A DNA stretch of 64,000 nucleotides from Candidatus Gastranaerophilales bacterium (GTDB taxonomy: Bacteria > Cyanobacteriota > Vampirovibrionia > Gastranaerophilales > Gastranaerophilaceae): the NCBI GenBank assembly GCA_944322785.1, contig CALUPW010000003.1, forward strand, positions 124,001 to 188,000, read 5' to 3'. Under the pieces are notes generated by a model that searched no databases, had not been told where the DNA came from, and saw only the letters and a list, made by a program, of their open reading frames with translations. Both the position numbers and the translations under genes were made by a program. Positions 19,832-41,165 of the stretch are shown here, one piece after another. Each line of letters opens with the position of its first letter. The stretch's first letter is position 1.

Positions 19832-20769
19832 CTATCTTGGCAGATTTTTAAAATAATTTATATCATAGATAGCTTTTACAGCACAGGAAATTCCATTAAA
19901 ATCATGACCTGATGAATAGGAACAATAGGTTACATCATTTGTGAAATCGGTACCCTCAGCCCCCATTGGAAGAAGTCTCCCGTCATTCATCGATTGAAAC
20001 GTAAACAAATCATGCCCGTACTTATTTGGGGACTTTCTGTACCCATTCACATCAAATGAAATATAGACCTCTTTGTCTGTTATTCCTTGATTTTCAATCA
20101 AGATTAAAGTTCCGTCTTTCAAAACTAATTGCCCATCGTCAAAAAGATTAAGATTTCCAATATATTTTTTACCGTTATAAGTTTTATAAATTTTACTACG
20201 TTCCTCTTGATTACTAGCGTTATATATACAATCTTTTGACCCCCAGGCTGCGCCGCACTCATGAAGTACATCCATATATTTTAATAATATTTTCTTTAAT
20301 TCAACAGTTCCAAGTTCATCAGCATGCAAAATTTCTCCGGTATCAGCAGTATACATGTTAATTGCCTGATTAATTGCCGAATAATTTTTCTTAAAACCTG
20401 TTTCAAGCTCTTTTGGCTTATAATTATTTATTAACGACGGCAGTGTCATTGCTGCAACTATTCCGATTATGCCAAGCGTTATTAGAACCTCTGCCATGGT
20501 AAAGGCCGTTTTGCGGCTAGATTTGTCATTTTGGACACCTGAGGTGAGGATGTTTTTATCAGCATTGATAGATTCTGAGTCAAGCTCAGAATGACATGAC
20601 AGATGCACATGCGACGGCTTTGTCATTCCGGCCTCCGAGCCGGAATCTATTTCTTTATTTAGAGATTCTGAATCAAGTTCAGGATGACCAATTGTTAAAT
20701 TGCAATCAGGAGCCGTTTTACAGGTTGCCCCCCCCCCCCCTGAAACTCAGTCATATCAATAGTTTCCAT
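19832..20769 (-). CDS. Prepilin-like protein with frame-breaking poly-G tract (phase-variable candidate)
   Basis: Translation from the ATG at 20769, which has AAGGAG nine bases upstream, reads METIDMTEFQGGGG and then meets a stop after the 13-G tract (20728-20740). With 11 or 14 G the frame joins the rest and gives a protein of about 312 residues with 14. The body has a type III signal-type segment AFTMAEVLITLGIIG (cleavage expected before Phe; Ala, not Gly, at -1) and a hydrophobic helix, then a pilin-like domain with NKYGHDLFTF and LLPMGAEG blocks shared with the gene at 35020. The leader would be 89 residues, far longer than usual, and is built from REP-like palindromes. An internal ATG at 20626 behind GGAGG could start a shorter form with a 41-residue leader. 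Confidence 0.75.
20571..20695. repeat. Three REP-like palindromes inside the prepilin leader
   Basis: Palindromes at 20572-20592 (ATTCTGAG/CTCAGAAT), 20625-20646 (ATTCCGGC/GCCGGAAT) and 20665-20685 (ATTCTGAA/TTCAGGAT, one mismatch) follow each other. Flanks such as GTCAT before the arm resemble widespread small palindromic elements that read as HSELDSES when translated. They are in frame with the prepilin body. Confidence 0.75.
20728..20740 (-). repeat. Poly-G tract of 13 (C13 on +) in prepilin 5' coding region
   Basis: A pure run of 13 identical bases inside the coding region, 10 codons after an ATG with a good ribosome-binding site. On the coding strand it is followed by CAACCTGTAAAACGGCTCCT, which recurs in altered form after the other two tracts (36039, 40849). 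Such tracts slip during replication and switch genes on and off in other bacteria. Confidence 0.9.
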
Positions 20770-20820
20770 ACTTTTAAGCTCCTTATAATATCATTATTGT
20801 TTATTATATCATATTATTAT

Positions 20821-32462: not shown

Positions 32463-32542
32463 TGGGCATGAAGAGACTCGAACTCCCACGCGGTTAGCAC
32501 TAGTTCCTAAGACTAGCGTGTCTACCATTCCACCACATGCCC
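32463..32542 (-). tRNA. tRNA-Leu (TAG)
   Basis: An 80-base tRNA with acceptor GGGCATG/CATGCCC, anticodon stem CTAGT/ACTAG around CTTAGGA (anticodon TAG), a long variable region and T-arm GGGAG-TTCGAGT-CTCTT. CCA is not encoded. The upstream side carries two copies of a 100-bp repeat that contains parts of its 5' half. Confidence 0.92.
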
Positions 32543-32742
32543 ATATTTAATTATCATTACAAGTTTTTTTCAAAAACTTCAGCGTGTCTACCCCTCTCAC
32601 AAACGATACTTAATCGTTTGTTCGGCAGCGTACCACATGCCCATATTTAATTATCATTACAAGTTTTTTTCAAAAACTTCAGCGTGTCTACCCCTCTCAC
32701 AAACGATACTTAATCGTTTGTTCGGCAGCGTACCACATGCCC
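32543..32742 (-). repeat. Perfect 100-bp tandem duplication carrying tRNA-Leu 5' fragments
   Basis: Bases 32543-32642 and 32643-32742 are identical. Read on -, each unit begins GGGCATGTGGT (tRNA-Leu bases 1-11), holds an insert with the hairpin ACAAACGAT/ATCGTTTGT, continues with GGTAGACACGCT (tRNA-Leu D-arm region) and ends in AAGTTTTT/AAAAACTT, then AATTAAATAT. The true tRNA forms the third unit in line. No anticodon or 3' half is present in the copies. Confidence 0.9.
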
Positions 32743-35019: not shown

Positions 35020-36082
35020 TTATTTTCTATTCATCTGCTCTATCATTTCTGTTGTTGTTAAACCGCCTTTTTCAGCAACCATACAAAGTCCTCCCGCCGG
35101 TACCAGCGGTGTTCCGTAATTTGCTTTTGTTGTAAATGAAAACAAATCATATCCCCATTTATTCGGACCTTTTTTGCCGTTGATGTCAATTAGAAACAAC
35201 GCAAAGTTATTTTTTTGAAAGGGAATAAGTATCATACCGTTTTTTAAAATATAAACATAACTACGTCTCTGTATTTCACTTTTTCTGTAGGCAGTACACC
35301 CCCCTGATAAAGAAAATGCCTCATCATCGCTCATTTCTGTATCACTGTTGTTTTGTAAAACAGTATCATATCCTTCATAATCAGGTATACAACCTTCATC
35401 ACTTCCTCTACAATGCCCAATTACCTGAATATTTTTCTCAAAAGTTTCTCTAAACAATTCGCAATCGCCAAATCTCCCTGAAATATCCGCAGGCTTTGGA
35501 CTACCGTCAGCCATTCCTGATTTTGTACAGTGACCAAATTTATCCCATTCAATACAGACCGTTTTATATGGACTATTTAGCCAATAATAACATTCCGGCG
35601 TATATTCAAGATTTGCCACTACTCTAACGAATGCTTGCTGTATTAAAGAATAAGCAACCTTGAACTGTTCTTTTAAAACTTTCTTTTGATAATTAGCAAT
35701 CAAAGACGGCAGAGTCATTGCAGCTATTATACCGATTATGCCAAGTGTAATAAGGACTTCTGCCATGGTAAAGGCTGCATTGCGGCTTGGTTGGTCACTC
35801 CGACCTCCGAGCCGAAGTCTATTTTTATTAACATTGATAGCTTTCGGATCACCAGGTAGGGGCATAAAATCTCGTTTCGACTTTGTCTCTACGGATTTTG
35901 AAGCCAACTCGGAATGACGTATCATTTTTTCATAAAAATATTCAAGACATGTTCTTTTGAGATTCTTCGGACTCAAAATATCGTTGTCCTCAGAATGACT
36001 AATTGTTAAATCACAATCAGGAGCACTTTTAGAGGTTGCCCCCCCCCCCCCGAAATTCAATCATAGTCTGCTTTTTAGCCAT
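35020..36082 (-). CDS. Prepilin-like protein with frame-breaking poly-G tract (second copy)
   Basis: From the ATG at 36082 (AGGAAGG six bases upstream) the frame reads MAKKQTMIEFRGGGG and stops soon after the 13-G tract. With 12 or 15 G it joins a body ending at 35020, 353 residues at 12. A TTG at 36060 is in the right frame at 13 G but has no ribosome-binding site. The body has AFTMAEVLITLGIIG with a hydrophobic helix (cleavage before Phe, residue 104 in the joined form), then a cysteine-rich pilin-like domain with NKWGYDLFSF and LVPAGG blocks shared with the gene at 19832. The two are paralogues. Leader sequence again includes REP-like palindromes. Confidence 0.72.
35793..35999. repeat. REP-like palindromic elements in the second prepilin leader
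   Basis: Degenerate palindromes include 35797-35818 (ACTCCGAC/GCCGAAGT) and about 35957-35999, where GATTCTTCGGACTC and CTCAGAATGA flank a spacer. They resemble those at 20571-20695 and are translated as part of the leader. Confidence 0.5.
36039..36051 (-). repeat. Poly-G tract of 13 (C13 on +) in second prepilin
   Basis: Thirteen identical bases, 10 codons after the ATG at 36082. The coding-strand downstream sequence CAACCTCTAAAAGTGCTCCT matches that of the 20728 tract at 16 of 20 positions, and the similarity continues for another 25 bases. Confidence 0.9.
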
Positions 36083-38033: not shown

Positions 38034-39923
38034 ATGGATTACTTAAAAAACACATACGATTGCATAGTTGTGGGCGCAGGACACGCCGGATGCGAAGCAG
38101 CAATTTCTGCGGCACGCCTCGGCGCAAAAGTTTTACTTTGCTCGCTTAATCTTGATAACATTGCGCTTATGCCATGCAATCCTGCAATCGGCGGCCCCGC
38201 AAAATCCACTCTTGTGCGGGAGATTGATGCACTCGGCGGAGTTATGGGAGAAGCTGCCGATGCAACTTATATCCAGATGAAAATGCTTAATTCCTCAAAA
38301 GGCCCTGCTGTTCGTGCTCTGCGGGCACAATCAGACAAAAAACAATATATGAATTATATGAGAAATGTTATTGAAAATACGGATAACATTCACCTCCGTC
38401 AAGCATGTATCACGGATTTGACTGCAGAAAACGGAATTATTACAGGTGCAGTTGATGAATTTGGAATTGAATATAAAGCACGAACAATTATTCTGACAAC
38501 CGGAACTTCTCTTTGCGGACGAATTTTTGTAGGCTTGAAATCCTACAGTGCAGGCAGATTAGGCGAAATGGCTGCAATAGGGCTTTCCGACTCTTTAAGA
38601 AAACTCGGAATAAACATCAAAAAACTTAAAACAGGCACACCACCCCGTGTTGACAAACGTACAATTGATTATTCAAAGATGACAATTCAACCCGGAGATG
38701 AGGAACTCAATTTTTACTCATTTAAACCTGATCGTCCGATAAGGAAACAGTATCCATGCTATTTGACCCGAACAAATGATGAAACTCACAGAATTATCAG
38801 AGAAAATCTGGACAAATCACCTATGTTTCAAGGGCTGATTGAAGGTGTAGGTCCCCGTTATTGCCCTTCAATTGAAGACAAAGTTGTCCGTTTCAGTTCA
38901 AATCCTTCTCACCATATTTTTATAGAACCCGAAGGACTTGGAACTTATGAAGTCTATATACAGGGATTTTCCAGCAGTCTTCCGGCAGATGTTCAGGTAA
39001 AAATGCTTCATACACTTTCCGGTCTTGAAAAAGCCCATGTTATAAAACCGGCATACGCTGTTGAATATGATTATGTTCCGGCTGTCCAAACAATGCATTC
39101 ATTAATGTCAAAAGATATTAAAGGCTTGTTCTTTGCAGGACAGATTAACGGCACCAGCGGGTATGAAGAAGCCGCTGCTCAGGGGTTGATTGCCGGAATC
39201 AATGCCATTAATTATATGAACAATTCAGAGATGCTTGAACTGTCAAGAAGTTCATCCTACATAGGAACTCTTATTGACGATCTTGTCACAAAAGATATTC
39301 AGGATCCCTATAGAATGCTCACCTCACGCTCCGAATACAGACTTTTACTCCGTCAGGACAATGCGGATGCCAGATTAACGCCAATAGGACACAAAATCGG
39401 ACTTGTTGATGATGTTCAGTTTAAAATTTTTACAGAAAAACAAAAAAATATTGAAAATGAAATGACAAGGCTTGCTCAACATAAAATTTCCGCAACAGAT
39501 AAGGTAAATGAAATCTTATCAAAATACGGCGAACATATGGAGCGGGGAATGAGAGCCGCAGAACTTTTGAAACGTCCGAATATTTCATACAAAATTTTAA
39601 AAGAAATTGATGAGGAAACAGCCTCCCTAAATTTGCCGAGAGATGTTTTTGAACAGGTTGAAGTTTTGATTAAATATGACGGATATCTTAAGCGTCAGGA
39701 ATTTCAGGTTGAGCAAGCCGGAAAACTTGATAAATATAAAATTCCTGATGATATAGATTACGACAAAATCGACCATATTTCATCCGAAACAAAAGACAAA
39801 CTAAACAAAATCCGCCCAAAAACCTTAGCTCAGGCCTCCCGCATCGGAGGTGTGAAACCTGCGGATATTTCAGTTCTTATGGTTTTGTTGGAGCGTCATG
39901 CCGTTGCCCGCAAGGTGCTTTAA
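38034..39923 (+). CDS. mnmG: tRNA uridine-5-carboxymethylaminomethyl modification enzyme MnmG (GidA)
   Basis: A 629-residue flavoprotein of normal MnmG length. With MnmE it modifies U34 of several tRNAs. FAD-binding GAGHAGCEAAISAARLG (about 13-29), PCNPAIGGPAKSTLVREID (about 46-64), TGTSLCGRIFVG (about 154-165) and the C-terminal GYLKRQEFQVE helical domain are visible. The ATG at 38034 is preferred over one six codons upstream, because MnmG begins with this residue pattern and the TATAAT box lies in between. The last 47 bases overlap the acyltransferase gene on the opposite strand. Confidence 0.94.
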   Translation: MDYLKNTYDCIVVGAGHAGCEAAISAARLGAKVLLCSLNLDNIALMPCNPAIGGPAKSTLVREIDALGGVMGEAADATYIQMKMLNSSKGPAVRALRAQSDKKQYMNYMRNVIENTDNIHLRQACITDLTAENGIITGAVDEFGIEYKARTIILTTGTSLCGRIFVGLKSYSAGRLGEMAAIGLSDSLRKLGINIKKLKTGTPPRVDKRTIDYSKMTIQPGDEELNFYSFKPDRPIRKQYPCYLTRTNDETHRIIRENLDKSPMFQGLIEGVGPRYCPSIEDKVVRFSSNPSHHIFIEPEGLGTYEVYIQGFSSSLPADVQVKMLHTLSGLEKAHVIKPAYAVEYDYVPAVQTMHSLMSKDIKGLFFAGQINGTSGYEEAAAQGLIAGINAINYMNNSEMLELSRSSSYIGTLIDDLVTKDIQDPYRMLTSRSEYRLLLRQDNADARLTPIGHKIGLVDDVQFKIFTEKQKNIENEMTRLAQHKISATDKVNEILSKYGEHMERGMRAAELLKRPNISYKILKEIDEETASLNLPRDVFEQVEVLIKYDGYLKRQEFQVEQAGKLDKYKIPDDIDYDKIDHISSETKDKLNKIRPKTLAQASRIGGVKPADISVLMVLLERHAVARKVL

Positions 39924-41033
39924 CCGGTTTTAAAGAATTTGTCCAGTTAATAAATTTATTTTTTATATTTTTGCCAGTAAAGTTTAAAAATTCGCCGATA
40001 TAAGTACAAATTACAAGCGAACCGAAAGCATAAAGAAATTTATACTTGTGCATTTTATAATAAGCGTTTAAAACTCCGGCAGGCCAGTCTGCAGTAGATT
40101 TGCCATCAATATATAAAATACATATAGATATTAAAAACATGACAAATACGTGGTTTGCCATGATATGAAGTGTATTTCTGCCGATTTTATCAATTAACGA
40201 ACCTTCTTTAACCAGAGGCGCCAGAAGTTTTGAGATGAATAAAACTAAATAAATTCCGGTGAACGGACATAACAAGGCTGACATATTATGGTGCAATCTC
40301 GCCCACTTTAAATCAACGTCAATTGTGTTATTAAAGATTATAATTGAAAGTATTTGTATTAAAATTACAATCCCTAAAGTTTTTGTATTATATTTAATTT
40401 TATTTTCAAGAGAAATTTTATACAAATATCCGGTATAAATATAGAATAATGAAATTAAAATCTTTATAAATATTTGCTTTACACCATGCACATAGCTGAA
40501 ATCGGAAGGGGATAATAAAATTGCAATTATTGCAAATAATAAAAATAAAACAGAGGTATATACAGTTTTTAGTTTGATTTTATACAATACAGCCATTAAT
40601 ATTGCAAAACAACAAAGAGAAATTGCCAGTTGATACAAAAACCAGTTTGGCGCATTAAAATTAAAAGGAGTTGAATCAACGGGAGCTAAAATCAACAATT
40701 TCAAAGTCGGCAATTTCCCGTATAATTTGTCAAACCAAATGTATATAAGATATATCACACCGCCGTAAAAAAAATGGTATGCATAAAAACGTCCGAGATA
40801 TCTGCAAATTATCTTTTTACACCATTCAAGGAGCTGTTTTACGGGTTGCCCCCCCCCCCCGTAATTATAGCTGTTTTAAAGAAATAACCGGATATAAAGA
40901 AGAATAAAGGTACATGCCAGCTATAATTTATAAACAAATCTCCGAAAATATTCCAACGTGTATGCCCCGCAACTATAGCCAAAATTCCTATTGCCTTTGC
41001 TATATTCATTTCCATGTTAAATGTTTTTGACAT
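39877..41033 (-). CDS. Acyltransferase-3 family membrane protein, interrupted by a poly-G tract (phase-variable candidate)
   Basis: The ATG at 41033 with GGAG six bases upstream starts MSKTFNMEMNIAKAIG. The frame ends just after a 12-G tract (40849-40860) with a stop. With 10 or 13 G it continues through QPVKQLLEWCKK into the long second part, giving 385 residues at 13. The joined protein is an acyltransferase-3 with about 10 membrane helices. The N-terminal GILAIVAGH segment, with the catalytic-type His, and HVPLFFFISGYFF lie before the tract; the tract falls in the first cytoplasmic loop (residues 59-62), a tolerant place. The family O-acylates cell-surface glycans. The 3' end overlaps mnmG by 47 bases. 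Confidence 0.75.
40849..40860 (-). repeat. Poly-G tract of 12 (C12 on +) in the acyltransferase gene
   Basis: Twelve identical bases at the junction of the two frames. On the coding strand CAACCCGTAAAACAGCTCCT follows, matching the module after the two prepilin tracts, although the reading frame needed here is different. A 10-base direct repeat AGCTGTTTTA lies on both sides (40832-40841 and 40869-40878). Confidence 0.9.
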
Positions 41034-41165
41034 TCTGTTCTCCAAGATTGTAAAAAAACTTATTTCTCTATTTGTAAAATCATAAATTAGATACGTTTAC
41101 AATATTACAAGCCATTTTTTATAAGATTAATGGACTTTATAATTATACAATAAAAAGGAGTGGCT

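Follow-up and report, generated by a model that had tools for sequence, protein, structure and literature searches.

Poly-G tracts in the leaders of prepilin genes of a Gastranaerophilales family are mostly kept in one out-of-frame register per genus, with a matched stop codon

How can a prepilin gene be expressed when a run of G a few codons behind its start throws that start out of frame with the prepilin body? The question is raised by a locus on the minus strand of the window, the stretch of 64,000 nucleotides that was analysed, which comes from the Gastranaerophilales, a lineage of non-photosynthetic relatives of cyanobacteria. The features of the locus, read along the minus strand, are the following.

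20779..20784, minus strand: Shine-Dalgarno (SD) sequence AAGGAG, read from the sequence.
20767..20769, minus strand: ATG start of the leader METIDMTEFQ, which recurs in many paralogues.
20728..20740, minus strand: poly-G tract of 13 G, in frame at 11 or 14.
20718..20720, minus strand: conserved default stop TAA, 7 nt past the tract, in the start frame at 12 G and not at 13 G.
20707..20714, minus strand: GGCTCCTG, complementary to the gene's own SD (AGGAGC).
20695..20697, minus strand: TAA at which the start frame terminates when the tract has 13 G.
20624..20626, minus strand: internal ATG behind GGAGG, within an inverted repeat.
20501..20506, minus strand: predicted prepilin-peptidase cleavage site, Ala (20506-20504) / Phe (20503-20501), placed by the position of the motif.
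19832..20727, minus strand: prepilin frame up to and including its stop, made up of a repeat-bearing leader, FTMAEVLITLGIIG and the pilin body.

The start reads ATG GAA ACT ATT GAT ATG ACT GAG TTT CAG on the minus strand and, as an earlier note on this DNA had claimed, it lies at 20769 behind a strong AAGGAG. That note had also put the tract ten codons after the ribosome-binding site, which is a loose count: the tract begins in codon 10 of the reading frame. With 13 G the product is METIDMTEFQ-GGGG-QPVKRLLIAI, and the start frame indeed dies behind the tract, at the TAA at 20697-20695 (minus strand). A frame check agrees with the proposal that 11 or 14 G would join the start to the prepilin body, the prepilin frame having no stop between the tract and 19835 and containing the prepilin motif FTMAEVLITLGIIG. 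Counted with overlaps, runs of eight G occur 17 times in the window where 0.25 would be expected, and 0 of 100 shuffles equalled this number.

Against PF07963, the profile of the N-terminal methylation motif, the window gene scores 20.1 bits, slightly under the cut-off of 21.2, and the sibling gene at 36039 scores 22.4 bits, over that cut-off. The window protein also matches the GspG model, below that model's cut-off, and gives weak matches to geopilin and GspG sequences; its single-sequence structure model has a mean pLDDT of 32. The predicted cleaved leaders (20501-20727 in the window, and those of many paralogues) are full of in-frame palindromic repeats, read as HSELDSES, DSGSEAGMT and similar peptides, and the repeat-bearing leaders span from 11 to more than 250 codons. 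The tract-free prepilin genes of the same genome mostly have an ordinary short leader, e.g. MKKAFTMAEVL.

Two further tracts lie in the window, and all three are followed by nearly identical downstream sequence.

36039..36051, minus strand: second prepilin tract, 13 G, one base out of frame as is the default.
35020..36038, minus strand: prepilin body of the tract at 36051-36039.
40849..40860, minus strand: third tract, 12 G and the same CAACCCGTAAAACAGCTCCT, inside an acyltransferase 3 gene, out of frame.
39877..41096, minus strand: the acyltransferase 3 gene split by the tract at 40849-40860, measured from the upstream stop.

Both halves of the acyltransferase 3 gene match PF01757 (profile positions 4-59 and 76-299). 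The G12-CAACCCGTAAAACAGCTCCT block within it is the same as in the prepilin genes, as if it had been copied into an unrelated gene. Another unusual tract site is found at L229 (G030:C25), where an in-frame G12 lies within an apparent thiamine-diphosphate enzyme, a gene that, judging by eye, we take to be acetolactate-synthase-like. The window also holds a perfect 100-nt tandem duplication at 32532-32731.

The genome that contains the window (1.95 Mb in 18 contigs) has 45 tracts, 37 of which lie ahead of a prepilin motif; in 30 of these 37 copies the body is open up to the tract, and the remaining 7 carry further breaks. Most share a common layout, in which an SD and an ATG are followed by METIDMTGFQ or MKKQTMIEIQ, then by G11-G13 and then by CAACCCGTAAAACAG(G)CTCCTG. 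Long G tracts are abundant in much of the family and nearly absent from the order's other families. Some relatives, which where named are Candidatus Gastranaerophilales MAGs, have more than 100 tracts, and the richest genome has 176 G tracts of 10 or more. Altogether, about 21 genomes gave 210 intact prepilin loci built in the same way. Since 33 of the 210 are in frame, on alleles exist, and the occurrence of in-frame and out-of-frame lengths among loci so alike gives good support to the earlier suggestion of a tract-length switch on a prepilin gene. Tract length also varies between close copies with alike flanks, as in L051 and L185 (G13 vs G12) and at L243, where near-identical neighbours have tracts of G10 and G12. 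The comparison of tract lengths across relatives that had been proposed as a check gave L185 (genome G006) as the closest locus found, with G12 against the G13 of the window.

For each intact locus the register was defined as the frame of the SD-supported start, picked by a simple SD score, relative to the frame of the prepilin body. Among the 125 loci of the window's genus, g1, 100 are one G too long, 15 are in frame and 10 are in the other off frame; in the window's own genome 27 are in this default register, 1 is in frame and 2 are in the other off frame. The window locus, with its 13 G, is a genuine member of the family and one of the 10 g1 loci in the less usual off frame, L185 being at the default 12 G. 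When distinct leader/downstream combinations of g1 are counted, 81 of 105 are in the default register. The flanks differ, so that the in-frame length is 11, 12 or 10 depending on the locus, and the commonest observed lengths are 12, 13 and 11; length tracks frame class with Fisher p-values of 7e-11 and 3e-6, which overstate independence because the loci are related. It is thus the phase that is kept and not the length, because the commonest length follows each locus's in-frame length. The stop is matched to the register: within 15 nt past the tract a stop is found in the default frame at 116 of 125 g1 loci, mostly 4-11 nt behind the tract, vs 13 of 125 for the remaining off frame. Genus g22 has the opposite off frame as its default (42 of 57 loci), and the stop has moved along with it (56/57 vs 4/57). 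The genus g7 is like g22, and g10 and g11 are like g1, all on small samples. Two near-identical prepilin loci 124 kb apart, L043 and L045 (G000 C2:52149 and C2:176386), are identical in the downstream region shown and have CA-G12 in one and CAA-G11 in the other, so that the register has been kept by substitution.

A register lock of this strength goes beyond what simple phase variation would predict. A length equilibrium as the source of the common phase was rejected, the common length shifting with frame class (12, 13, 11) while the phase is constant. At the tract mutation rates of C. jejuni (PMC8224891), neither neutral change nor a cost of the on state yields 12 G, and the latter was discarded since the model collapses to 7-9 G. 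The slippage model is a rough guide, as the rates of this lineage may differ, and in it a favoured default register does not hold 12 G either. Slow inheritance of one ancestral phase was also set aside, close pairs of g1 differing in phase in about 1/5 of cases and distant pairs in about 1/3, a comparison that includes few close pairs and is not decisive. Selection may be what causes the lock. Simple mutation models do not account for the maintenance of the default register.

The earlier note had further supposed that, with the tract off, the internal ATG at 20626 could start a shorter-leader prepilin, the switch then acting on leader length. This ATG behind a palindrome-made GGAGG is real: it lies in the inverted repeat ATTCCGGC-TCGGAG-GCCGGAAT, its GGAGG is well spaced, and 41 codons separate the ATG from the prepilin motif. 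As a general mechanism, however, the shorter form is not supported. An SD-supported ATG inside the leader is present in only 21 of the 210 loci, and among the 89 loci with a short leader (tract and motif no more than 30 codons apart) 85 lack any in-frame ATG, GTG or TTG in this interval and 0 of 89 have an ATG behind a Shine-Dalgarno there. With no start codon available in these 85 short leaders, translation has to run through the G tract to give the protein, and re-initiation past the default stop was rejected on the same ground. The window locus has its ATG 20626 because a repeat element brought it, and this element is found in only some loci. The ATG may leak some product from the window copy; the system is not built on an internal start of this type, and we regard a leader-length switch as very doubtful. 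In one relative, L392, the tract is interrupted (GGGGGAGGGG), and the gene is in frame with a start ahead of the tract like that at 20769.

In g1 a second element accompanies the stop. At 75 of 125 loci a GCTCCT behind it is complementary to the gene's own AGGAGC, against 2.4% in shuffles. The match to the gene's own SD beats that to the SD of other loci (5.09 vs 4.52, sd 0.09), and the predicted accessibility of the SD is lower with GCTCCT (0.25 vs 0.51). The conservation of GCTCCT looks to be at the nucleic-acid level because the element is read in different protein frames among loci. It was not found in g10, and the whole element of the window folds no better than shuffles (z -0.23). A family-wide masking of the SD by such an anti-SD was rejected, the signal being strong in g1, limited to a partial complementarity in genome G034, without predicted effect in g22 and absent from g10.

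Taken together, we think it probable that these loci undergo slipped-strand phase variation with a default OFF, the tract lying within the cleaved leader of a prepilin gene. Translation would begin at ATG 20769 and reach the prepilin frame only at 11 or 14 G, and prepilin peptidase would then remove the leader, with its poly-glycine and repeat elements, at A/FTMAEVL. Each genus holds one off register. In g1 the tract is usually one G too long, a stop codon is matched to that frame, and the GCTCCT could hide the SD of its own gene. Gain or loss of a base in a tract would switch on single pilins, with a putative role at the surface, presumably in a minority of cells.

That the slippage would take place in DNA is suggested by the orientation of the tracts. 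In G034, a genome of g22, 38 co-directional prepilins have poly-G and 4 anti-directional ones have poly-C, and 6 other tracts obey the same rule; by GC skew, G lies on the leading-strand sense in 48 of 48 tracts (other genes, 176 to 99). This G-strand rule ties the tracts to replication and so favours DNA slippage. Poly-G is found on one strand along whole contigs in G034 and in G101/G102, with 45 of 45 on G102:C1 among those listed. In the window's own genome 35 of 39 prepilin-type tracts are in their contig's majority orientation. The rule is less clear in g1 because poly-C prepilins are almost absent there (128 poly-G vs 2 poly-C), and in this genus, where prepilins use almost only poly-G, the tract may have a role at the mRNA level.

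A role in mRNA could take the form of programmed transcriptional slippage, RNA polymerase slipping on the G/C run so that some mRNAs are in frame when the DNA is not; the default register would then be the normal coding state, and the nearby stop would end the unslipped product. A programmed recoding site is expected to keep its register and to have a stop nearby in the frame that is read without a shift. The loci show both, and the retention of the two across genera recalls known sites of this kind (PMC5009743). Losses of the default in g1 to the in-frame and to the other off register are moreover about equally rare, 15 vs 10, a balance not expected if there were simply selection against the on state. 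Nevertheless, neither the direction of the shift nor the slippery base in the mRNA sense is the same across members: the shift needed is -1/+2 G in g1 and g10 and +1/-2 in g22 and g7, g1 and g22 having opposite defaults, the anti-directional g22 genes are poly-C, and tract orientation follows replication. The known bacterial cases, in addition, are A/T runs (PMC1088944, PMC5009743). On this balance we consider transcriptional slippage possible and rather unlikely. The corollary that the off register is the coding state, with dozens of pilins made through obligatory homopolymer slippage and their level tuned by stops and SD-masking, can likewise be put forward only tentatively. Ribosomal frameshifting of the RF2 (prfB) type, the G run being both the shift site and an internal Shine-Dalgarno that helps it, seems hardly probable at all. 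A +1 shift would join the g1 frames, the stop lies 7-10 nt behind the G run and the stop spacing of RF2 is not far from this arrangement, but g22 and g7 would need the opposite direction, poly-C prepilins exist and the codons ahead of the stop vary.

It is also conceivable that the loci are pseudogenes or that their tract lengths are assembly miscalls, since consensus genomes show the majority of copies out of frame, errors are common in homopolymers and 7 of the 37 own-genome copies are broken elsewhere too. We judge this very unlikely. The other 30 bodies are open, the error would have to be +1 in several g1 assemblies and -1 in g22, and the stop is placed in exactly the frame of the called default. 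Furthermore, of the tracts that lie inside other long genes of the family, such as those for glycosyltransferases, 9 of 15 are in frame vs 33 of 210 for the prepilins (p 3e-4). The lengths are very unlikely to be an artefact, because a systematic miscount would affect both sets and would have to change sign between genera.

Default-OFF phase variation of these genes would mean that a common, mostly uncultured gut lineage has a large set of phase-variable surface genes, apparently undescribed so far; a search of the open-access literature, which is weak evidence of absence, found no publication coupling Gastranaerophilales with phase variation. Standard annotation would label such genes as frameshifted or pick wrong internal start codons. 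The puzzle is that hundreds of presumably fast-mutating tracts stay one base from on, with a stop in the right frame. If the off register were instead the coding state, prepilin output would be set by slippage rates and not by regulators.

Compared with known systems, the loci resemble the contingency genes of Campylobacter and Neisseria, in which a G/C homopolymer some 7-13 bases long, near the 5' end of the coding sequence, switches the frame by single bases, the genes being surface-related and present as tens of loci per genome. Classical contingency genes sit on or off more or less randomly, whereas here one off register is held, with a matched stop. Neisseria pilC is a phase-variable pilus gene with poly-G in the signal peptide region, and it shares with the present loci a poly-G that lies early in a gene for type IV pili, within the portion removed from the mature protein; in Neisseria one or two pilus-tip genes are concerned, here dozens of prepilin subunits. 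Strains of C. jejuni have 12-29 contingency loci each (PMC8224891). Unlike the Campylobacter and Neisseria genes, those described here belong mostly to one family, the prepilins, carry the tract in the cleaved leader, occur in a distant lineage where a single genome can have 176 G tracts (10 G or longer), and in some genera have a strict tract orientation to replication. A homopolymer as shift site is also found in transcriptional slippage, as in dnaX of Thermus, IS elements and Shigella spa13, and dnaX has close stops in the unwanted frames (PMC5009743). These three cases, however, are A/T runs with a fixed direction of shift, whereas the prepilin loci have G/C runs and a direction that depends on the genus.
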